Shown: in pieces, positions 33,370 through 51,190 of the stretch | Layout: each line of letters begins with the position of its first letter | How positions within the stretch are numbered: the first letter of the stretch is position 1 | Assembly: GCF_009687885.1 (NCBI RefSeq) | Contig: NZ_BLAF01000005.1 | Coordinates: forward strand, 38,529-102,528 | DNA: 64,000 nt | From: Acrocarpospora pleiomorpha | GTDB lineage: Bacteria > Actinomycetota > Actinomycetes > Streptosporangiales > Streptosporangiaceae | Direction: 5' to 3' | Notes under the pieces: generated by a model | Database searches by the model: none | Told to the model about the DNA's origin: nothing | The model's input: only the letters and a program-made list of their open reading frames with translations | Translations under genes and position numbers: made by a program

Positions 33370-35211
33370 ATGAGAAGAACGACGGCAGCGTGGGCTCTTA
33401 CGCCACGCCCCGGGCACTCCCTCAGGCGGCGGCGGGTCATCCGCACCATCGGCTTAGCTGGAGCGCTCGGTGCCCTGGCGGTCGGCGGCCTGGCGCCGGC
33501 CCATGCGCAGACCATCGGCAGCATGCACGCGGCCGGCGCACCGATGGCGGCCGCTGGTGAGGTAGCGGCTCTCGCCACGGCTTCGAATCCAGCGGCGACC
33601 AAGACAACCCGGGTGGTCGTGACCACGGACGGTGAGGGCGACGACCAGGCCTCCATGCACCGACTGCTGCTCTACGGGAACGACCTGGACATCGCGGCGA
33701 TCGTCAGCTCCTCCTCCAGATGGCACTGGGCCGGCGACCCGACGGCCAATCCGCCCATCCCGGCCAGACGGTGGTCCGGCACTGCCTGGATTCCCCAGTT
33801 GATCGACGGCGGCTACCGCCAGGTGTACCCGAACCTGATCAAGCAGGATGCGCGATACCCCAGCGCTGACGCCCTGCTGAAGATCGTCAAGGACGGGAAC
33901 GTCACCGCTGAAGGCGAGATGGCGAAGGACACGCCGGGCTCTCTGCTCGTCAAGAGCATCTTGCTGGACAACGATCCTCGGCAAGTGAGTCTGGAGGCGT
34001 GGGGCGGCACCAACACCATCGCAGCGGCGCTTCGATCCATCGAGGATCAGTACGCGAATACGCCGCAGTGGGCCTCCGTCTACAAGAAGATCGTCGCGAA
34101 GGCGAACCTGTACATCATTCAGGACCAGGACTCGACCTACAAGAACTACGTCACGGTCAAGTGGCCGGACCTGAAGACGGTCATGAACCGGGATGAGTTC
34201 GAGGCGTTCGCCTATCGCTGGGAGGGCACGCCGGAACCGATCATCAACGTGTTCCGGAAGGCCTTCGTCAGTCAGTACCTGACCCAGGGCCCGTACATGG
34301 CCAGTTACCCCGTCGCCGCCACTGGTGACTGGTTCTCTGAGGGCGACTCGCCGGCGTTGCTGCACGCGATCCCGACCGGGCTGGGGAACTTCTCCGACCC
34401 CACCTACGGTGGCTGGGGCGGACGGTTCGTCCAGATCAATAAGAACCTGTGGGCGGACGACCCGCGGTACTTGGACGTCGACCAAGACCGCGCCAACGAC
34501 AGCAGCTTGTACGGCTTGACGAAGAGCACCACTCGTGGCCTGTTCACCGTCACCCTGACCGCTGCCGCGCCGGCAGGGACCAGCACCATCACCCTCTCCG
34601 ACAACAAGAGCGCCCACACCTCGGGCATCTGGCGGGTGTCGCAAATCTTCCCCGGGAACGTAGTTACCGTCGGGGTTGGGCCGGCCACCGAGCAGCGCAC
34701 CATCGTGGCCGCCCAGACCACCACTGCTCCGTACACCATCACCCTGGACCAGCCGCTCACGTCGAACCACGCTGTCGGTGACGTCGTGGTCAACTACAGC
34801 AGCCCCCATTGGGCCCAGGCGCGCTGGGACGAGGCGATCCAGCACGACTTCGCGGCTCGCGCTGCCTGGACCACCGCGCGTTCTTACTCAGCGGCGAACC
34901 ACGCACCGGTCGTCAGCATCCGCCACACCAAGATCTCCGCGAAGCCTGGGCAGCGGGTGCTCCTTACCGGCACCGCGAAGGATCCAGACCGCAACGCGCT
35001 GACCTACCAGTGGTGGGACTACCCCGAGGCCGGCACCTACAAGGGTGGCGAGGTCGCCGTCGAAAGTTCTCCGGGGCTGCCTGGCGCGGCATCCTTCGTG
35101 GTGCCGAAGGACGCCAAGAAGGGCGACACCATTCACATCATTCTGCAGGTGAGTGACGATGCTCCACTGAGCCTGACCAGCTACGCCCGTGGGGTCGTGA
35201 CCGTCGAGTAG
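33370..35211 (+). CDS. Secreted Sde182/DUF1593 nucleoside-hydrolase-like protein
   Basis: A 613-residue secreted protein. Signal peptide with an Arg-rich n-region (SLRRRRVIRTIGLAGALGA), probably Tat, and cleavage near AHA-QT. The nucleoside-hydrolase-like domain (about 75-385) begins TRVVVTTDGEGDDQASMHRL and contains LEAWGGTNTIAAALRSI and WFSEGDSPALLHAIP. The C-terminal Sde182-type domain ends with an Ig-like module (VSIRHTKISAKPGQRVLLTG). A roughly 85-residue Thr/Val-rich module (about 395-480) interrupts the family layout just before HWAQARWDEAI. The family is linked to plant polysaccharide degraders, but its reaction is not established. GGAGAG precedes the ATG. Confidence 0.85.
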   Translation: MRRTTAAWALTPRPGHSLRRRRVIRTIGLAGALGALAVGGLAPAHAQTIGSMHAAGAPMAAAGEVAALATASNPAATKTTRVVVTTDGEGDDQASMHRLLLYGNDLDIAAIVSSSSRWHWAGDPTANPPIPARRWSGTAWIPQLIDGGYRQVYPNLIKQDARYPSADALLKIVKDGNVTAEGEMAKDTPGSLLVKSILLDNDPRQVSLEAWGGTNTIAAALRSIEDQYANTPQWASVYKKIVAKANLYIIQDQDSTYKNYVTVKWPDLKTVMNRDEFEAFAYRWEGTPEPIINVFRKAFVSQYLTQGPYMASYPVAATGDWFSEGDSPALLHAIPTGLGNFSDPTYGGWGGRFVQINKNLWADDPRYLDVDQDRANDSSLYGLTKSTTRGLFTVTLTAAAPAGTSTITLSDNKSAHTSGIWRVSQIFPGNVVTVGVGPATEQRTIVAAQTTTAPYTITLDQPLTSNHAVGDVVVNYSSPHWAQARWDEAIQHDFAARAAWTTARSYSAANHAPVVSIRHTKISAKPGQRVLLTGTAKDPDRNALTYQWWDYPEAGTYKGGEVAVESSPGLPGAASFVVPKDAKKGDTIHIILQVSDDAPLSLTSYARGVVTVE

Positions 35212-41877: not shown

Positions 41878-42006
41878 GTCGGCAATATTAGGACCTGACA
41901 GGGGTGGGCTTTGCCGGGGTTTTGCCCGGTACGTGGCCACGGCAACTCAGCCGTGTTCGACCTGATCCTGAGCTCGTTTTCAGGAAAGTCACGTACAAAC
42001 CAACGT

Positions 42007-42711
42007 ATGGACGCATCCCTTCCCGCCAAGGTCCTGGTCGTCGATGACGAGCCGAGCATTCGTGATCTCCTGTCCGAGGCGCTGGAGCTGAACGGGTTCA
42101 CCGTCCGGACCGTCTCGTGCGGGCGCGCGGCGCTTCAGGAGGTCGGGAGAGACAGGCCTGACATCGTGGTGCTCGACGTGATGCTGCCCGACATCGACGG
42201 CTTCTCGGTGGCGCGCCGGCTGCGGGAGGCCCGGTGCGGCCCGCCGGTCCTGTTCCTGACCGCGAAGGACGCGGTCGGCGACCGGATCGCCGGGCTGACC
42301 GCCGGTGGTGACGACTACGTCACCAAGCCTTTCAGCCTGGAGGAGGTGGTGCTGCGGCTGCGGGCGATCCTGCGCCGCATCCGGCCGCAGGAGGAGTGGT
42401 TCGACGACGACGGGGTGGTGCGGTACGCGGACCTGGAGCTCGACGAGGAGGCGCACGCGGTGCGGCGGGCGGGGCGGGCGATCCGGTTGTCGCCTACGGA
42501 GTTCGCGTTGCTGCGCTATCTGATGATCAATGCTGACCGGGTGGTCAGCAGGACGCAGATTCTGGAGCGGGTGTGGGATCACGGGTTCGACACCGACAGC
42601 CGGATCGTCGAGTCCTACATCAGCTACCTCCGGCGCAAGATCGACACCGGCGGGCCGCCGCTGATCCACACCCTGCGCGGGGTCGGCTACCGCCTGTCCC
42701 TGACGCCGTGA
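42007..42711 (+). CDS. OmpR-family response regulator
   Basis: A 234-residue transcription factor. Receiver domain with acidic pocket D13-D14, phosphoacceptor D57 (VVLDVMLPD) and K107 (TKPFS), and a C-terminal winged helix (LSPTEFALLRYLMINADRVV, RIVESYISYLRRKID, TLRGVGYRL). ATG at 42007. Its stop overlaps the kinase start (GTGA), and it is followed by the kinase and the VTC-DUF4956-CotH operon, its most likely target. OmpR-type regulators bind direct repeats, as seen at 44060-44103. Confidence 0.95.
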   Translation: MDASLPAKVLVVDDEPSIRDLLSEALELNGFTVRTVSCGRAALQEVGRDRPDIVVLDVMLPDIDGFSVARRLREARCGPPVLFLTAKDAVGDRIAGLTAGGDDYVTKPFSLEEVVLRLRAILRRIRPQEEWFDDDGVVRYADLELDEEAHAVRRAGRAIRLSPTEFALLRYLMINADRVVSRTQILERVWDHGFDTDSRIVESYISYLRRKIDTGGPPLIHTLRGVGYRLSLTP

Positions 42712-44081
42712 AGCGTCCCTGGCCGCTGCGTCTGCGGTTGCTGGCGGCGTTGCTGAGCCTGTCGGCGCTGGGGCTGGCGGTCTTCGCCGTGTCCGGTGTG
42801 CTGGTGCTGGAGCGGTCATTGCTGGCGCGTGCCGACACCCAGCTGCGCGACTTCGCCGTGAGCGTCGCCCTGCGTCCGCCACCACGGGCCGCGCAGCCGC
42901 CGCCACCGGCGAACCTGGAGCTGCCGAGCCAGTTCCGGGTCGCCTTCTACTCCCCGTCCGGTGTGCTGGAACGTCGGATGCCCGCGGCGTCAGGCGACGA
43001 ATCGGTCGTCCCCGCCGAGGCCGTCGCCCGGGCGTCGCACCAGCCGTTCACCGTGGGGGACTGGCGGGTGGTGGTCGAGCGGCTGCCGTCGGGCGGGCGG
43101 GTGGCGGTCGCGATGTCGCTGGAGTCCAGCCAGGTGACCGTGCGGCAGCTGCTGGTCATCGAGACGGTCGCCGGGGTCGTGGTGCTGACGTTGCTCGGCG
43201 CGCTGGCCTGGGTGGTGGTACGGCTCGGGCTGCGGCCGCTGACCAGGATGGAGCGGACCGCCGAGGCGATCGCGGCCGGTGACATCGACCGCCGGGTGGC
43301 CGACGCCGACACGCGCACGGAGGCCGGCCGGCTCGGCGGGGCGCTGAACACGATGCTGGAGCGCCTGGCCTCGGCGCTGCGGGCCAGGGAGCAGTCGGAA
43401 CGGCGGCTGCGGCATTTCGTCGCGGACGCCTCCCACGAGCTGCGCACTCCGCTGACCTCGATCCGGGGCTTCGCCGAGCTCTACCACCACGGGCAGCAGG
43501 CCCGCGATCCGGTGGCCGAGCGGCTGCTCGGCCGGATCGAGAACGAGGCCCGGCGCATGGGGGTGCTCGTGGAGGACATGCTGTTGCTCGCCCGGCTGGA
43601 CCGGGAGCCGGTGCTGGAGCAGGGCACGGTCGACCTGCGGGTCCTGGCCGGTGACGTGGTGCACGCCGCCCGCGCCCGCGACCCCGGACGGCCGATCGCG
43701 CTGGAGGTGCCGGCCGACCCGGTCACCGTGCTCGGCGACGAACACCGGCTGCACCAGGTGATCGGCAACCTGGTCGGCAACGCGGTCACCCACACCACCG
43801 GCAGGGTATCCGTCGAGGTCGCCCGGCCCGACCCGGGCACGGCGCTGGTGGCGGTACGTGACCAGGGCGAGGGCATCGACCCCGCGCACCTGCCGCACGT
43901 CTTCGACCGCTTCTACCGTGCCGACCCCGGCCGGTCGCGCGCCTACGGCGGCACCGGTCTTGGCCTGGCCATCGCCGCCGCACTGGTCGAGGCGCACCAG
44001 GGCCGGATCGAGGTGACCAGCACCCCCGGCGAGGGGACCACGTTCAAGGTCGCCCTGCCGTTCATCTCTGGTTCGTGCTGA
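42708..44081 (+). CDS. Sensor histidine kinase (HAMP type)
   Basis: A 457-residue membrane kinase. Transmembrane helices at about 10-32 and 146-168 flank a ~110-residue extracytoplasmic sensor with a Pro-rich patch (RPPPRAAQPPPPANLELP). HAMP follows, then the H-box with H243 (ADASHELRTPLTSIRGFAEL). ATP-binding motifs are VIGNLVGNAVTHT (N-box), VRDQGEGIDPAHLPHVFDRF and GGTGLGLAIAAALVEAHQG. GTG start overlapping the regulator stop. The sensed signal is unknown; phosphate limitation is one possibility given the PHO-like repeats downstream. Confidence 0.94.
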   Translation: MKRPWPLRLRLLAALLSLSALGLAVFAVSGVLVLERSLLARADTQLRDFAVSVALRPPPRAAQPPPPANLELPSQFRVAFYSPSGVLERRMPAASGDESVVPAEAVARASHQPFTVGDWRVVVERLPSGGRVAVAMSLESSQVTVRQLLVIETVAGVVVLTLLGALAWVVVRLGLRPLTRMERTAEAIAAGDIDRRVADADTRTEAGRLGGALNTMLERLASALRAREQSERRLRHFVADASHELRTPLTSIRGFAELYHHGQQARDPVAERLLGRIENEARRMGVLVEDMLLLARLDREPVLEQGTVDLRVLAGDVVHAARARDPGRPIALEVPADPVTVLGDEHRLHQVIGNLVGNAVTHTTGRVSVEVARPDPGTALVAVRDQGEGIDPAHLPHVFDRFYRADPGRSRAYGGTGLGLAIAAALVEAHQGRIEVTSTPGEGTTFKVALPFISGSC

Positions 44082-44103
44082 GTTCACACATTGTTCCCAG
44101 GTT
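44060..44103 (+). promoter_or_regulatory. PHO-box-like direct repeats (four 11-bp GTTC units)
   Basis: GTTC begins at 44060, 44071, 44082 and 44093, each unit exactly 11 bp: GTTCATCTCTG, GTTCGTGCTGA, GTTCACACATT, GTTCCCAGGTT. Actinomycete PhoP sites are known to be built of 11-bp direct repeats starting GTTCA. The array begins inside the last codons of the kinase gene and ends 13 bases before the VTC gene's likely ATG. Confidence 0.65.
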
Positions 44104-44116
44104 CGTTCTGTCAGAT

Positions 44117-44935
44117 ATGCGCATGCTGCAACGACTCCGCACCCCTGTGGACGACGCCGGGCACCGCCTGCGCGCACCGAGCACGCTGCACGCCTTCAAC
44201 CGCTACGAGATCAAGTACCTGATCGACGTCGATCAGGTCGAGAGCCTGCGGCAGGAGATGGAACGCCGCCTAGACCGGGACCAGCACTGCCCCGACGAGG
44301 GCTACAACATCTGGAGCGTCTACTACGACACCCGTCGGCTGCGCTTCTACTGGGAGAAGATCGAGGGCCTGAAGTTCCGCCGCAAGCTGCGCATCCGCCA
44401 CTACGGCGACCGCTTCGCCGCCACCGGCGACACCCCGGTCTTCGTCGAGATCAAGCAGCGCGTCAACCGGGTCACCCAGAAGCGCCGGGTCCGCCTGCCC
44501 TACGCCGACGCGCTCGGCCTGTGCGACGGCCGGCGCATGGTCGGCCACGAGCCCGGCCAGCGGGCCTTCCTGGAGGAGGTCCTCGACCTGGTGTCCCGCC
44601 TCGACCTGCACGCCACCGCGATGACCGGCTACACCCGCCACGCCTATATGGGGCGCGACGCCGACGTCGGTCTGCGGGTCACCTTCGACCAGCGCGTCCG
44701 GGGCCGGGACCGCGACTTCCAGCTGGGCGCCCAGGCGGAGAACCGGCTCATCGTGCCGGCCCGCAAGGCGATCCTCGAAGTGAAGGTCAACGAGCGGGTG
44801 CCGTACTGGTTCACCGATCTCGCCGCCGCCAGGAACCTGCAGGTCGTGCGGGTGTCCAAGTACTGCCAGAGCGTGGAGGCCTACGGGCTGGCGCCGCGCT
44901 CGATCTTCCATCTGCCCGCTCACTCGGAGGCATGA
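44117..44935 (+). CDS. VTC-domain (polyphosphate polymerase-like) protein
   Basis: A 272-residue cytoplasmic protein of the VTC/triphosphate-tunnel-metalloenzyme fold. NRYEIKYLIDVDQVESLRQE opens the domain; the tunnel is represented by YYDTRRLRFYWEKIEGLKFR, RKLRIRHYG, FVEIKQRVNRVTQKRRVRLP and AILEVKVNERVPYW, with alternating basic and acidic residues. In yeast the VTC domain makes polyphosphate from ATP. Start: ATG at 44117 (another at 44123); GTG at 44147 is possible if the promoter lies over the first codons. Followed four bases later by the DUF4956 gene. Confidence 0.85.
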   Translation: MRMLQRLRTPVDDAGHRLRAPSTLHAFNRYEIKYLIDVDQVESLRQEMERRLDRDQHCPDEGYNIWSVYYDTRRLRFYWEKIEGLKFRRKLRIRHYGDRFAATGDTPVFVEIKQRVNRVTQKRRVRLPYADALGLCDGRRMVGHEPGQRAFLEEVLDLVSRLDLHATAMTGYTRHAYMGRDADVGLRVTFDQRVRGRDRDFQLGAQAENRLIVPARKAILEVKVNERVPYWFTDLAAARNLQVVRVSKYCQSVEAYGLAPRSIFHLPAHSEA

Positions 44936-44939
44936 CCCC

Positions 44940-45617
44940 ATGGACTTCACCTTCCAGGATCTGTCCGGCACGTTCAGCGTGGCCGACATCGCCATCGCCA
45001 TGAGCCTGTCGTTCGTGCTGAGCGCGATGATCGGCTGGATCTACCGGGCGACGCACCGCAACGTCTCCTACAGCCAGTCCTACGTGCAGACGCTGGTCAT
45101 CCTCGGCATGCTCATCTCGCTGATCATGCTGGTCGTCGGCTCGAACATCGCCCGCGCGTTCGCCCTGGTCGGGGCGTTGTCGGTGGTGCGCTTCCGCAAC
45201 GCGATCAAGGAGACCCGCGACGTCGGCTTCATCTTCCTGGTGATGGGCGTCGGCATGGCCGTCGGCACCCGCTTCTACCTGCTGGCCATCGTGGCCGCCG
45301 TGGCCATCTCGCTGATCATCGTGATCATGCACCGGTTCAACTGGTTCCAGCTCAACACCCGCCGCCAGGTGGTCAAGGTGCAGGTGCCCTCCGACGACGA
45401 CTACACCCTCGTCATCCAGGACGTCCTGATCCAGCACACCGACGAGTTCGAGCTGGTCAGCATGGAGTCCATCCGCGGCGGGGCGCTGCTGGAGCTGATG
45501 TACACGGTCAAGATCAAGAAGGGGCACGAGCCGGCGGACGTGATCACCGCCCTGCGCGCGCGCAACCACGGCCAGCCGGTCACGGTCCTGACCGGCTACG
45601 ACCAGACCGACCTGTGA
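44940..45617 (+). CDS. DUF4956 membrane protein
   Basis: A 225-residue protein, about three or four transmembrane helices in the first 130 residues (SLSFVLSAMIGWIYRATHRN, LVILGMLISLIMLVVGSN, LLAIVAAVAISLIIVIM). The conserved GALSVVRFRNAIKETRD lies between helices, and a ~90-residue cytoplasmic domain follows. The function is not known. DUF4956 is repeatedly co-encoded with VTC-domain and CotH proteins and resembles the MgtC/SapB fold in layout. The start has GGAGG upstream; the stop overlaps the CotH start (GTGA). Confidence 0.88.
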   Translation: MDFTFQDLSGTFSVADIAIAMSLSFVLSAMIGWIYRATHRNVSYSQSYVQTLVILGMLISLIMLVVGSNIARAFALVGALSVVRFRNAIKETRDVGFIFLVMGVGMAVGTRFYLLAIVAAVAISLIIVIMHRFNWFQLNTRRQVVKVQVPSDDDYTLVIQDVLIQHTDEFELVSMESIRGGALLELMYTVKIKKGHEPADVITALRARNHGQPVTVLTGYDQTDL

Positions 45618-47221
45618 TCGCCATGGCCCGCCTGAGGCATCGCATCCCGGTCAGCCTCCGCCAGAACTGGAAGCTGGTCGTCGCGTGCGGGGTGTTCCTC
45701 GCGGTGTGCGCCGGAGTCTTCGGCAGCGGGACGATCCGTCCGTACGTGACCAGCGCCCGCGCCGCCTCCGGTGCGACGGTCGTCACCGACCTGGCCGGCG
45801 GCAAGGAACTGTTCGACCCCTCCGCCGCCCACGAGGTGAGGCTGACCTTCACCGACCAGGCGTACGAGGACATGCTGAGCGAGTACTTCAAGAGCGGCGA
45901 TAAGACCTACGTCGAAGCCGACCTGGTCATCGACGGCACCACGATCCCCAGCGTGGGCGTGCGGCTCAAGGGCAACTCGACGCTGTCGGGCCTGACCTGG
46001 AAGGGCGAGTCCCGGCAAGGAGGCCGCGGCGGACCGGGCGGCGGCCAGCGCCCGGAGGGACTTCCCGAGGGTTTCCAGCCCCCGGACGGTTTCCAGCCGC
46101 CTGACGGTTTTGAGCTGCCTGAGGGTGCCGAGCTGCCTGAGGGTGCCGAGTTGCCAGACGGTGCCGGGATGGCGGAAGGCGGGGCTGGTTTCGGCGGGTT
46201 CGGACGGGCGTCGCTGAAGGCCGAGGAACCGGAGAACCTGCCCTGGCTGGTCAGCTTCGACGAGTTCGTCGAGGGCCGCCGCTATCAGGGGCACAGCCAG
46301 ATCGCCGTGCGACCGGTGTCGATGGGCTCCGCGACACTCCTCAAGGAGTCACTGGCGATCTCCATGGTCGGCGCGTCCGGTGAGCCCTCCCAGGGGTACG
46401 CCTACAGTTCCTTCACGGTCAACGGCCGTTCCTCGGCGCCCCGGCTGCTGGTGGAGTATCTCGACGAGGGATACGCAGAAGAGCTGGGTGACGGGGTGCT
46501 GTACAAGTCCCTGGCGACCTCGACCTTCTCGTACAAGGGAGAGGACCAGACCGCCTACACCGACGACTTCAAGCAGGTCAACGCCAAGGGCGAGCAGGAC
46601 CTTCAGCCGGTGATCGATCTGGTCAAGTGGGTGGAGCAGGCCTCGGACGAGGAGTTCGCCTCCGGTCTGGCCGCCCGGCTCGACGTGGAGTCCTTCGCGC
46701 GCTACCTCGCGCTGCAGAACATGTTGCTGAACTTCGACGACATGGCGGGCCCTGGCCGTAACTACTACCTGTGGTACGACCTGAGCGGCAAGAAGTTCAA
46801 AGTCATCAACTGGGACCTCAACCTCGCCTTCAGCGGCGACGCGAGCGCGGGCCCGGACGACGCCCTGAGCATGGGCGGATTCGGCCGACAGCAGCCTGAG
46901 GGGCAGGCCGGTCAGCAGCCTGAGGGGCAGGCCGGTCAGCGGCCCGGTGGCGGTGGCATGCGCATGGGGCACGCGCTGAAGGACCGCTTTCTCGAGACGG
47001 CCGCCTTCAAGGAGGTCTACCAGGAGCAGTACCGGAAGCTTTACCAGGATCTTCTGGCCAGCGGGAAGGCGGAGACTCTCCTGGACCAGGCGGTGGCGTC
47101 CTACCAGGCGAACCAGGGCGCCGACGCCGCCGAGGCCCAGAAGGAGGCCACCACGCTGCGCACGACGCTCGCCACCCGTGCCGAAGCGCTGGGCGAGGCG
47201 TTCGCGGAGCAGGGAAGCTGA
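45614..47221 (+). CDS. CotH-family secreted kinase-like protein
   Basis: A 535-residue protein with an N-terminal membrane anchor (about 20-40, WKLVVACGVFLAVCAGVFGS). The CotH kinase-like core spans VRLTFTDQAYEDML to the C-terminus, with VGVRLKGNSTL, ALQNMLLNFDDMAGPGRNYY and the metal-site-like VINWDLNLAFSG. CotH of Bacillus phosphorylates spore coat proteins. Two low-complexity inserts are unusual: a ~65-residue PEG/PDG repeat (about 135-195) and a shorter QPEGQAG repeat (about 430-450). GTG at 45614; ATG at 45623 is an alternative. Exported, so its substrate would be extracytoplasmic. Confidence 0.87.
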   Translation: MIAMARLRHRIPVSLRQNWKLVVACGVFLAVCAGVFGSGTIRPYVTSARAASGATVVTDLAGGKELFDPSAAHEVRLTFTDQAYEDMLSEYFKSGDKTYVEADLVIDGTTIPSVGVRLKGNSTLSGLTWKGESRQGGRGGPGGGQRPEGLPEGFQPPDGFQPPDGFELPEGAELPEGAELPDGAGMAEGGAGFGGFGRASLKAEEPENLPWLVSFDEFVEGRRYQGHSQIAVRPVSMGSATLLKESLAISMVGASGEPSQGYAYSSFTVNGRSSAPRLLVEYLDEGYAEELGDGVLYKSLATSTFSYKGEDQTAYTDDFKQVNAKGEQDLQPVIDLVKWVEQASDEEFASGLAARLDVESFARYLALQNMLLNFDDMAGPGRNYYLWYDLSGKKFKVINWDLNLAFSGDASAGPDDALSMGGFGRQQPEGQAGQQPEGQAGQRPGGGGMRMGHALKDRFLETAAFKEVYQEQYRKLYQDLLASGKAETLLDQAVASYQANQGADAAEAQKEATTLRTTLATRAEALGEAFAEQGS

Positions 47222-47327: not shown

Positions 47328-49103
47328 TCACGGGCGAAATGTCGTGAGAAATGTGTCGAAGTAGGAGCGGGCGGCTTCCCAGTTGCTTTCGGGGACCTGC
47401 CAGTAGAGGGCGTAGCAGTCGTCGCCGATCCGGAAGGCGCGGTCGATGACACGCTGCCGCCCGGCGGAGGTGGCGAAGGTGAACTCCCAGTCGGCGGCGG
47501 CCACGCCCCGGTATTCCGCGGGTTCGATGCTGATCTTCTCGTACTTCGGCAGCAGGCCCTTCGCGGTGGAGTTGCGCTCCACCGTCTCCAGGGCGGCCAC
47601 GGGGTCGCTCTCCTCCCAGGGCGTGAGGTCGACCTGGAGGTAGCCGGGCATGGCCGGGCCCCGGAACCGGACCCGGGCGGCGTTCGGCACCCGCTCGGCC
47701 TTCCACCCCCGCGGCAGCGCGATCGCGAAGCCGAGCTCGTCCCGGTAGGACCGCCAGCCCGGCGGGAGACGGTTCACGGGCGATGCCGAGGGAGCGGAGG
47801 TCGCCGTCTCCCTGGGCGTCTCTGTGGGCGTCTCCACGGGCGTCCCTGTGGCCGTCACGTGGGATGTCGCGGCGGCGGTCTCCGTCGGGGTCCCGTCGAT
47901 GGTCTCCGTGGGGGTGTCCGCGGTGGGCAGCGTGATGACGCCGGATCCCGGATCACCCGCGAGCTGCTGGTACCCGAACCACCCGGCCACGCCCAGCGCG
48001 ACGACGAGCACGGGAACCAGCACGAAACCAATCAAACGTTTGTTCGATGACGCTGGGCGCGGCTGGGTCGGCACCGGCGGGACGCCCCATTCGCCGCCGC
48101 CCCAGGAGCCCGCCCCGGCCTGCGGCCACCCGGCCTGCGACCACCCGCCCGGCGGTCCGGTCGGACCAGGAGTCGCACCAGGAGTCGCACCAGGAGTCGC
48201 ACCAGGGCCCCACGGAGGCGGCGTTTGAGGCGGCCCAGCCGGTACCGGGGTCTGTGGCGACATAAGTGACATAGGCGACATAGACGGATTGGTTCCGGAA
48301 GCTGCCTGCTTCAGGAGTTCCTGCGCCTCCACGGCGTCGATCCGCCGGCCGGGCTCCTTGCGCAGCAACCCCTCGATCACCGAGGTCAGCGGCCCCGCCC
48401 GGCGCGGCATATCGGGCTGGCTGTGCAGGATGGCCGCCATGCTGGCGATCGGCGTGCCCCGGTCGTACGGCGAGCGCCCCTCCACCGCCGCGTAGATCGT
48501 CGCACCCAGCGACCAGAGATCCGACTCCGGCGTGGCGGGCTGCCCCATCAGGCGCTCCGGCGGCATGAACGCGGGCGTCCCCGTGATGCTCCCGGTCATC
48601 GTGAGCCCCGGGTCCTCCGTCATGGTCGCGATGCCGAAATCGGTGAGCACCACCCGGTTGTCGCCGCTGAGCAGCACGTTCTCGGGTTTCACGTCGCGGT
48701 GCAGGACGCCGGCGGCGTGTGCCGTACACAGCGCGTCCAGGATCTGCAGCCCCATGGCGGCGGCGCGTTCGGGGATGAGCGGCCCGTGCTCGCGCAGGAC
48801 CTGGCCGAGCGAGCGGGCCTGGACCAGCTGCATGACGATCCAGGGGCGGTCGTCCTCCTCGATCACGTCGTGCACCACGACCACGTTCGGATGCGAGAGC
48901 CGCCCGGCGGCCCTGGCCTCGCGGATCGTCCTGCGGTTGAAGGCGACCCGGTCATCCTCGCTCAGCGCGGTGTACAGCACCTCCTTGATCGCGACGGCCC
49001 GGTCGAGCAGGTCGTCGTGGGCACGCCAGACCACGCCCATGCCGCCCCTGCCGATGGGTTCGAGCAGCTGGTACCTGCCCGCCAGGCGACGCGCTTCGTC
49101 CAA
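47328..49103 (-). CDS. Transmembrane Ser/Thr protein kinase (downstream paralogue)
   Basis: A 591-residue PknB-type kinase. Kinase domain about residues 8-270: Gly loop IGRGGMGVVWRA, K40 (VAIKEV), HRDVKPENVLL, DFGIATM and GTPAFMPPERL. A Pro/Gly-rich linker with ATPG repeats precedes one helix (about 356-376, FVLVPVLVVALGVAGWFGY). A Thr-rich stretch and a ~140-residue extracytoplasmic domain follow (LPPGWRSYRDELGFAIALP). No PASTA repeats. TTG start at 49103 with GGAGGGGG upstream. It begins 24 bases after the upstream paralogue, so the two are probably co-transcribed. Confidence 0.92.
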   Translation of the reverse strand: MDEARRLAGRYQLLEPIGRGGMGVVWRAHDDLLDRAVAIKEVLYTALSEDDRVAFNRRTIREARAAGRLSHPNVVVVHDVIEEDDRPWIVMQLVQARSLGQVLREHGPLIPERAAAMGLQILDALCTAHAAGVLHRDVKPENVLLSGDNRVVLTDFGIATMTEDPGLTMTGSITGTPAFMPPERLMGQPATPESDLWSLGATIYAAVEGRSPYDRGTPIASMAAILHSQPDMPRRAGPLTSVIEGLLRKEPGRRIDAVEAQELLKQAASGTNPSMSPMSLMSPQTPVPAGPPQTPPPWGPGATPGATPGATPGPTGPPGGWSQAGWPQAGAGSWGGGEWGVPPVPTQPRPASSNKRLIGFVLVPVLVVALGVAGWFGYQQLAGDPGSGVITLPTADTPTETIDGTPTETAAATSHVTATGTPVETPTETPRETATSAPSASPVNRLPPGWRSYRDELGFAIALPRGWKAERVPNAARVRFRGPAMPGYLQVDLTPWEESDPVAALETVERNSTAKGLLPKYEKISIEPAEYRGVAAADWEFTFATSAGRQRVIDRAFRIGDDCYALYWQVPESNWEAARSYFDTFLTTFRP

Positions 49104-49127
49104 CGCAACCCCCTCCGGGACGAAAGG

Positions 49128-51074
49128 CTACTTGTCCGGCTTGAAGGTGGCCGTGAACGTCTCGAAGTAGTGGAAGTACTTCTTCCAGTCCGAGTCGCGG
49201 GTCTTCCAGAAGATCGCGTACCCGTGCTTCTTGTCGGTGACGAACCCGCGGTTCATGACGTGGCCGGTCGAGCCGCCGGGCTCCCAGGTGAACTCCCAGT
49301 CGGCGGCCTCGTCGAAGTAGTCCACCGACTCGATCTTGATCCGCTTGTAGCCGGGCCAGTTGCCCACGCTCCCCCGCTCCTGCTCCTTCCAGTCCTTCAC
49401 CGCGTCCTTCCTCGGCGAGCTGGTGAACCCGATCTGGAGGTACGCCCCCTCCAGCGGCCCCCGGAAGAACACGCCCATGCTGTTGCGATTGTCCTGCTTC
49501 CAGCCCTTGGGGAGGGCCAGCGAGAAGCCGCTGCTGTCCTTGTAGCGCTTCCAGCCGTCCGGAAGCGCGTCCCCGGATGATTCGGGCTTGGGCGACTCGG
49601 CCGCCTTGGAGGGTTCGGCTGAGGGCTTTTCAGCGGTCGGCTCCGCGCTGCCCGACGGCGGGGCGGAGCTCGGGGGCGCGGACCCGGCGGCGGTGGCCGC
49701 CGGAGAGCCGCCCTCGTCGTCGGCCTGCTGAGCCCCCAGCCAGACGCCCACACCCGCGATGAGCAGCAGCACGGGCACGATCACCAGCGCCGCCCTGACC
49801 GCCAGGGGCCGCCGCTCCGGCGGGTTGATGTTCCAGTCCGGATACGACACGGGCAGCTTCGACCGCGCGGTGTCGGCCCCGTCGCCGGCGCTCCAGCTCG
49901 GCTCGGCCGGCGGCTCCTCCTCGCGCTTCCATTCCGCCGGTACGGCCCGAGCCCCCGTCTCCACCGGATACGGGTCCTTCCGGACGGCGGCGGCCGGGAC
50001 CGGGCTGCGCCTCGGCGTCTCCTCCCGATCCGCGGCCTCCTCGGGTTCGACCTGGGGCTTCGGCTCGGGTTTCGGCTCGGGCTTGGGTTTGGGCTTGGGC
50101 ACCGGCTTGGGCGTCGGCTTGGGCACCGCCAACGATCGCGGCGGCTCGGCGCGCTTGGGTTCCGGCCGCTGCGGCGGGACCGGCGCCTCGACCGGCAGTT
50201 CGACCGGACCGGTGTCGGCCTCGCTCGCCTTGACCGCCTGGAAGGCCTTGGTGGGCGGGGGTTCGGTCTTGGCGCGGCGCAGCAGCCGGACCGTCTCGTC
50301 GTAGCTCGGGCGGTCGCCGGGCTCCTTGACCAGGAGCCGGTCCAGGACCACGCCCAGGCGGCCCGCGTGCACGGCGGGGTCGGGCTGGTCGTTCAGCACG
50401 GCGTGCATGGTCGCCATCGCCATGCCCTTGTCGTGCGGTGGGCGCCCCTCCACGGCCGCGTAGAGGGTCGCGCCCAGCGACCACAGGTCCGACTCGCGCT
50501 GGGCGGGACCGCCGCGTAACCGTTCCGGCGCGATGAACGCGGGGGTGCCCACGAGCCCGGTCCTGGTCATCGTCGAGTCGGTCTCCACCCGGGCGATGCC
50601 GAAGTCGGTCAGGACCACCCGGCCGTCCTCGGTGAGCAGAACGTTCTCCGGCTTTACGTCCCGGTGCAGCACCCCCTGGCCGTGCGCGGCGCGCAGCGCG
50701 TCCAGGACCTGCAGCCCGATGTCGGTGACCCGGGCGGGCGGCAGCGGCCCGTCCTCGCGGATCACCTGCCCGAGCGAGCGGGACTCCACCAGCTGCATGA
50801 TGATCCAGGGACGGCCGTCCTCCTCGATCACATCGTGCACCACGACCACGTTCGGGTGGGTGAGCCGCCCGGCGGCTCTGGCCTCCCGCATGGTCCGGCG
50901 GTTGAGCTCCTCCAGCTCGTCGCCCATGGCGCTGTCGTACCTGACCTCTTTGACGGCGACCGTGCGGTCCAGCAGCTCGTCGTGGGCCTTCCACACGATG
51001 CCCATGCCTCCCCGGCCGATGGGCTCGATCAGTTGGTACCGGCCTCCGACGAGTCGGCCTTCCGCGTTCGACAT
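49128..51074 (-). CDS. Transmembrane Ser/Thr protein kinase (upstream paralogue)
   Basis: A 648-residue kinase of the same architecture: IGRGGMGIVWKAHDELLD, VAVKEVRYD, HRDVKPENVLL, DFGIARVE and GTPAFIAPERL. A long cytoplasmic linker has a KP/EP repeat (about residues 310-345, VPKPKPKPEPKPEPKPQ). One helix lies near 430-450, and the extracytoplasmic domain begins LPDGWKRYKDSSGFSLALP, clearly related to that of the downstream kinase. ATG at 51074 is preferred over the GTG two codons upstream because of the AGAGGGG spacing. Its promoter would lie in the 116-bp gap before it. Confidence 0.92.
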   Translation of the reverse strand: MSNAEGRLVGGRYQLIEPIGRGGMGIVWKAHDELLDRTVAVKEVRYDSAMGDELEELNRRTMREARAAGRLTHPNVVVVHDVIEEDGRPWIIMQLVESRSLGQVIREDGPLPPARVTDIGLQVLDALRAAHGQGVLHRDVKPENVLLTEDGRVVLTDFGIARVETDSTMTRTGLVGTPAFIAPERLRGGPAQRESDLWSLGATLYAAVEGRPPHDKGMAMATMHAVLNDQPDPAVHAGRLGVVLDRLLVKEPGDRPSYDETVRLLRRAKTEPPPTKAFQAVKASEADTGPVELPVEAPVPPQRPEPKRAEPPRSLAVPKPTPKPVPKPKPKPEPKPEPKPQVEPEEAADREETPRRSPVPAAAVRKDPYPVETGARAVPAEWKREEEPPAEPSWSAGDGADTARSKLPVSYPDWNINPPERRPLAVRAALVIVPVLLLIAGVGVWLGAQQADDEGGSPAATAAGSAPPSSAPPSGSAEPTAEKPSAEPSKAAESPKPESSGDALPDGWKRYKDSSGFSLALPKGWKQDNRNSMGVFFRGPLEGAYLQIGFTSSPRKDAVKDWKEQERGSVGNWPGYKRIKIESVDYFDEAADWEFTWEPGGSTGHVMNRGFVTDKKHGYAIFWKTRDSDWKKYFHYFETFTATFKPDK

Positions 51075-51190
51075 CCACACCCCTCTCGAAACCCAAGAAT
51101 CGTCCCACGGATGGCAAATGGATCAAACGAGAGACCACTGCCCTAATCCTGCGATGTGAGACAGAACATTCTCAGGCCGGGGGAACCGGG

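Follow-up and report, generated by a model that had tools for sequence, protein, structure and literature searches.

A sensor-linked VTC-DUF4956-CotH gene cluster outside Pel loci in Acrocarpospora pleiomorpha: a candidate envelope phosphate module

In Gram-positive bacteria, Pel loci have been described to carry accessory genes for a CotH protein, a poly-phosphate polymerase and a DUF4956 protein, and this trio lies next to pelDEADAFG in streptococci, clostridia and bifidobacteria (PMC7112168). In Streptococcus intermedius, deletion of the DUF4956 gene increased the amount of Pel and deletion of cotH decreased it, aggregation of either mutant in artificial sputum medium fell by more than 50%, and the VTC mutant had no reported change in Pel or aggregation; in that study the three genes were seen together at Pel loci only (PMC12345266). 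Trio-like genes are also present in the NELoc-2 locus of Clostridium perfringens (PMC2879425). As regards the individual families, Lys458 was named the catalytic residue of yeast Vtc4, and an acidic patch absent from Vtc4 was defined for hydrolytic tunnel enzymes (PMC4641920), while mutation of D228 and D251 inactivates CotH of Bacillus subtilis (PMC7821199).

The window analysed here, a stretch of 64,000 nucleotides from Acrocarpospora pleiomorpha, carries the same three families next to a two-component system (TCS). The module, already published but still unexplained, gains here a variant that is linked to a sensor pair and free of Pel.

Organisation and occurrence of the cluster

The open reading frames and their Pfam matches define a compact cluster of five genes on the plus strand, at 42007-47221. 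The first encodes an OmpR/PhoB-type response regulator (RR; 42007-42711, Response_reg and Trans_reg_C, 2e-29 and 9e-28) and overlaps by the bases GTGA with the second, which encodes a membrane sensor histidine kinase (HK; 42708-44081) with HAMP, HisKA and HATPase_c domains. After 35 bases follows the gene of a VTC-type triphosphate tunnel protein (44117-44935; PF09359, 1.2e-44), for which an alternative earlier GTG start exists at 44075. A gap of 4 bases separates it from the gene of a DUF4956 membrane protein (44940-45617; PF16316, 8.9e-22), whose end overlaps, again by GTGA, the gene of a CotH-family kinase (45614-47221; PF08757, 1.2e-30). The initial annotation had described three tightly coupled genes behind an RR/HK pair, and their coordinates, gap and overlap were verified, as was the Pfam support for both upstream genes. 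Its family names VTC, DUF4956 and CotH stand, while 'MgtC-like' is reduced to a distant similarity, since the MgtC family model PF02308 scores 20.4 bits (7e-4) on DUF4956, below its cut-off of 31.4. Identification of the RR as PhoB and of the HK as MtrB was rejected, the best NCBIfam models being PhoB with 210.7 bits (cut-off 296.2) and MtrB with 246.9 bits (cut-off 450).

The Acrocarpospora genome (11.76 Mb) holds one VTC, one DUF4956, one CotH and one PPK1 gene; with PPK1 present, VTC is not the sole candidate enzyme for polyphosphate (polyP) in this organism. The DUF4956 protein shares 99% identity with its counterpart in Acrocarpospora macrocephala. Two adjacent Ser/Thr protein kinase-like genes, alike in layout, lie on the minus strand at 47328-51080, convergent on the end of the CotH gene, and a Sde182-like cellulose-binding protein resembling nucleoside hydrolases is encoded upstream at 33370-35211, some 7 kb from the cluster.

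The distribution of the three families was compared across genomes. Among 60 relatives, DUF4956 occurs in 17 and VTC in the same 17, and all 18 places with a VTC gene adjoin DUF4956. The two were likewise found in the same 16 of 149 phylum-wide genomes, with 17 adjacent pairs, and of 14 control genomes the same 3 gave matches to both. The genome of Corynebacterium glutamicum gave matches to all three families. CotH is present in 12 of the 60 relatives, 10 of which carry the pair, with CotH close by in 10, and in 13 of the 149 phylum genomes, all of which carry it, with CotH close by in 11; this concentration in pair-bearing genomes gives Fisher p values of 1e-5 and 3e-16, respectively, with shared ancestry ignored. 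VTC and DUF4956 are a near-obligate pair and very probably act together. The co-occurrence expected for all three families therefore holds as identical genome sets for this pair, CotH being a frequent but optional third partner rather than a constant member.

In all 80 loci nearest to the window by DUF4956 similarity, VTC, DUF4956 and CotH follow one another on one strand, with -4 to +10 bases between the last two. These loci come from Streptosporangiales, Micromonosporales, Pseudonocardiales, Streptomyces and MAGs and, being picked by DUF4956, measure conservation within the window's own lineage only. In a second lineage the order is DUF4956-VTC, with or without a differently placed CotH. Recurrence of the trio in the 80 loci, together with the identical genome sets in two samples, indicates that the clustering is not due to chance. 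Its recurrence in bacteria at large, also claimed initially, extends to Planococcus and Pseudobutyrivibrio, and all three families are found on an Enterococcus faecalis plasmid. A scan of viral contigs yielded one locus: on an IMG/VR contig (L128, 7248-8603) VTC and DUF4956 are paired next to phage-like genes and an ORF resembling mutS, which may mark the border between a prophage and its host. On psymA of Sinorhizobium meliloti (L124, 6281-8651) DUF4956, with no VTC detected, adjoins a caspase-domain (Peptidase_C14) protein.

PelG is absent from the Acrocarpospora genome and 59 relatives, and a Pel origin of the cluster was rejected for the Acrocarpospora genome on this ground. With no PelG in the 60 genomes, the window locus and its relatives are counterexamples to Pel-only occurrence, so that Pel cannot be the only role of the trio. 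The initial statement on its function was incomplete, as the trio and the phenotypes of its mutants had already been described for Pel loci (PMC7112168, PMC12345266).

A broader link to exopolysaccharides is possible, if doubtful. A matrix polysaccharide would then be tuned or modified by DUF4956 and CotH, the latter acting as a kinase on glycans or matrix proteins, while VTC would have a minor or conditional part. The position beside pelDEADAFG (PMC7112168) and the altered Pel and aggregation of the mutants (PMC12345266) agree with such a role, as do the glycosyltransferases that accompany the trio in Planococcus, in Pseudobutyrivibrio and in NELoc-2 of C. perfringens (PMC2879425); the Acrocarpospora genome and 59 relatives, however, lack PelG, and no glycosyltransferase is found among the sampled flanking genes of the window. 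In Paenibacillus (L121, 12694-14592) the gene after VTC-DUF4956 encodes a Cthe_2159 carbohydrate-binding protein, not CotH, which also favours a polysaccharide connection, but the recurrent non-TCS neighbours of the 80 actinobacterial loci, only partly annotated and for the most part in small clusters outside the Pfam annotation, include no shared synthase or other biosynthetic gene. The structural model of CotH resembles Fam20 secretory kinases weakly (Z about 10), whereas by sequence the protein is nearer to the TCS-linked CotH of Enterococcus (31% identity) than to the glycosyltransferase-linked ones (18 and 15%).

Conserved residues and predicted structures

The VTC domain scores 153 bits against a cut-off of 23, and a profile built from nine bacterial VTCs matches yeast Vtc4 structures at 6e-15. 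Residues were mapped by sequence alignment against chain 8i6v. R29, K33, R92, R94, E111, K113, R174, R187, E221, K223 and K248 of the window protein are identical to R196, K200, R264, R266, E279, K281, R361, R373, E426, K428 and K458 of Vtc4, and the twelfth mapped residue, K455, is replaced by Arg (R245). No substitution at the mapped positions was found in 80 rows, one of which is gapped at the N-terminal positions. The loss of tunnel residues that the initial annotation had considered is thus not observed, and a degenerate VTC is ruled out at the residue level. The conserved residues fit a Vtc4-like tunnel, short of proof for polymerase activity, and on this basis polymerisation of phosphate is slightly favoured.

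The DUF4956 protein matches its family with 78 bits (cut-off 30.6). Its AF2 model, built from 29 sequences, is of moderate quality (mean pLDDT 69.7, pTM 0.50) and places helices at residues 14-38, 46-65, 69-82, 92-109 and 113-132, a predicted membrane part that is followed by a C-terminal ferredoxin-like domain. Residues 138-223, to which the fold comparison was limited and which have no bearing on the fold of the membrane half, resemble ACT and other ferredoxin-like domains with Z of about 9-10, a common arrangement. ACT-like domains often bind small ligands. The layout of SIR_1592 of S. intermedius, four TM helices plus an ACT-like domain, is alike (PMC12345266). H39, R40, R84, R86, K90, R93 and D94 are invariant in the alignment and could, speculatively, meet a polyanion. 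The moderate model gives no evidence of a channel, and conduction of polyP by DUF4956 appears rather unlikely; the moving or sensing of polyP that the initial annotation proposed for this protein stays speculative.

Some features of both proteins would suit a different division of labour, in which VTC is a tunnel hydrolase or a phosphate or nucleotide sensor that regulates an MgtC-like DUF4956 in phosphate/ATP homeostasis, with CotH as the output. In the window VTC an invariant carboxylate, E31, occupies the position of Vtc4 Thr198, and essentially all sampled bacterial VTCs have RxE/DxK where Vtc4 has RxTxK (one odd row caught a different motif). The E31 position is presumably that of a metal-binding Glu in hydrolytic tunnel enzymes, so that an activity other than polymerase is possible. 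The weak MgtC similarity and the ACT-like fold, a domain type commonly associated with small ligands, point in the same direction. When the acidic patch of the hydrolases (PMC4641920) is equated by motif spacing, however, the equivalents of E2 and E171 are basic (R29 and K223), as in Vtc4, that of E4 is kept as E31, and that of E90 is not securely aligned; moreover, the position corresponding to catalytic Lys458 does not vary. A hydrolase or sensor is judged unlikely. The motif at the tunnel mouth (44117-44935; VTCs of loci L021-L029, L120, L121, L127 and L128) may represent a hybrid of polymerase and hydrolase fingerprints.

For CotH, an AF2 model with pLDDT of 80, mostly above 90 in the kinase core, was obtained. 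It matches Bacillus cereus CotH (5jd9/5jda) with Z of 31.9-32.1 over 336 aligned residues, the next best match having 12.2. The protein is predicted to consist of a basic N-terminal tail, one TM helix at about residues 19-36 and an extracytoplasmic kinase domain. In the alignment D375 and D401 fall on D224 and D247 of the B. cereus protein (5jd9) and, through this structure and the equal spacing of 23 between the two Asp in both Bacillus proteins, correspond to the B. subtilis residues D228 and D251 required for activity (PMC7821199). Both are kept in 79 of 80 CotH rows, the remaining row being gapped there, and a pseudokinase is ruled out at the residue level. The predicted anchor, the Asp pair and the fold uphold the original description of an exported, kinase-competent CotH, and the protein is reasonably likely to be an active kinase.

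Actinobacterial CotHs have in common the basic tail RHRIPVRxRHxWKL, which precedes the membrane helix, as well as two PEG-rich inserts that are disordered. In the window protein the first is a Pro/Glu/Gly/Phe repeat of PEGFQPPDG-like units at about residues 140-196 (46031-46201), recognised by sequence, low pLDDT and comparison with relatives; the second, the QPEGQAGQQPEGQAGQ region at residues 420-449 (46871-46960), is supported by sequence, relatives and the AF2 model. The inserts, with PEGFQPP- or PEGMQLP-like units, vary in length by genus, the first of them across 31 relatives, and are present in most relatives. The Enterococcus CotH has a lipoprotein-like start.

Linkage to two-component systems and proposed mechanism

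RR or HK genes are enriched just ahead of the trio: each of the two nearest 1-kb bins on the upstream side contains them in 39-40% of the loci, compared with 4-5% beyond 4 kb; downstream the values are 0-9%. An RR or HK lies within 1 kb in 44 of the 80 loci and none was detected in 36, these counts being approximate as a result of crude gene calling in GC-rich loci. These genes vary in kind and orientation and include NarL-type pairs. Outside this set, the order in Acetoanaerobium is RR-HK-VTC-DUF4956, in Paenibacillus a divergent HK-RR pair adjoins VTC-DUF4956, the E. faecalis plasmid carries all five families as VTC-DUF4956-RR-HK-CotH, and in Hymenobacter a TCS is located about 5 kb from DUF4956. 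On the VTC and DUF4956 trees the Firmicutes with a linked TCS form one group (99/99 and 98/95), but the trees do not fix how this group joins the actinobacterial clade. An alignment of upstream regions for an RR site gave a short conserved block only, approximately TAGAAC and roughly 9-12 bases before the RR start (41965-42010; loci L040-L070), which in several Streptosporangiaceae suggests a leaderless promoter.

Judging from this linkage, the TCS probably regulates the module. It is improbable that the TCS came to lie there by chance and was merely inherited within this family, the trio working independently: 36 loci without a detected TCS and others with differently oriented or NarL-type pairs would allow it, but upstream enrichment is about eight-fold over background and the association recurs in three Firmicutes (Acetoanaerobium, Paenibacillus and E. 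faecalis).

The best reading of the five genes, put forward tentatively, is that of an envelope phosphate module under sensor control, in which HK and RR would direct the operon in response to some extracytoplasmic cue. VTC, in view of its conserved Vtc4 residues, would be a cytoplasmic tunnel enzyme converting ATP to polyP or a related phosphate chain. DUF4956, its dedicated membrane partner as the observed pairing suggests, may dock the tunnel at the membrane and gate it through the ACT-like domain, filling the place of the membrane regions of yeast VTC. CotH, predicted to be anchored by one TM helix with its kinase outside, may phosphorylate a cell-surface protein or glycan. The opposite effects of the S. 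intermedius DUF4956 and CotH mutants on Pel amount, together with the silent VTC mutant, count against an envelope phosphate module, and the 36 loci without a detected TCS within 1 kb count against sensor control.

A bolder, speculative version, in which VTC and DUF4956 make and export polyP and the anchored CotH, under sensor control, uses it as the extracytoplasmic donor for surface proteins or glycans, is very improbable, as is the feeding of CotH by polyP in itself. The absence of a Pel phenotype in the S. intermedius VTC mutant weighs against VTC-made polyP being needed for the CotH effect there. The bolder version, if true, would constitute an ATP-free kinase pathway outside the cell. 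The proposed envelope phosphate module bears on the supply of phosphate donors to extracytoplasmic bacterial kinases and on the role of bacterial VTC beside PPK1, and five closely packed genes, among them an enzyme and its nearly obligate membrane partner, offer a direct test case for both questions.

Comparison with described systems

The S. intermedius genes SIR_1594-1593-1592 (cotH-PPP-DUF4956) share with the window the same three adjacent families, an exported CotH and a DUF4956 with four TM helices plus an ACT-like domain. The window differs in having no Pel locus, in the order VTC-DUF4956-CotH behind a TCS, and in a CotH that begins with a basic tail, has a signal anchor and contains repeat inserts.

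In C. perfringens NELoc-2, a gene annotated as tubulin/FtsZ is taken here to be the likely DUF4956 equivalent. With this assignment, NELoc-2 (PMC2879425) and the Planococcus plasmid cluster contain VTC, DUF4956 and CotH in the same order as the window, but there the trio precedes genes for a HEAT-repeat protein and a GT2 synthase, and the Planococcus stretch is without a TCS.

Yeast Vtc4 belongs to the same tunnel fold family as the window VTC, with 11 mapped residues identical and one Lys present as Arg. Unlike Vtc4, the window protein consists of the tunnel domain only, has Glu at the Thr198 position and has DUF4956 as its membrane partner. Bacillus CotH (5jd9/5jda) and the window CotH have a common fold (Z about 32) and both catalytic Asp residues, whereas the window protein, with 16-17% identity, is predicted to be membrane-anchored outside the cell, carries disordered inserts and is encoded away from any spore coat context.
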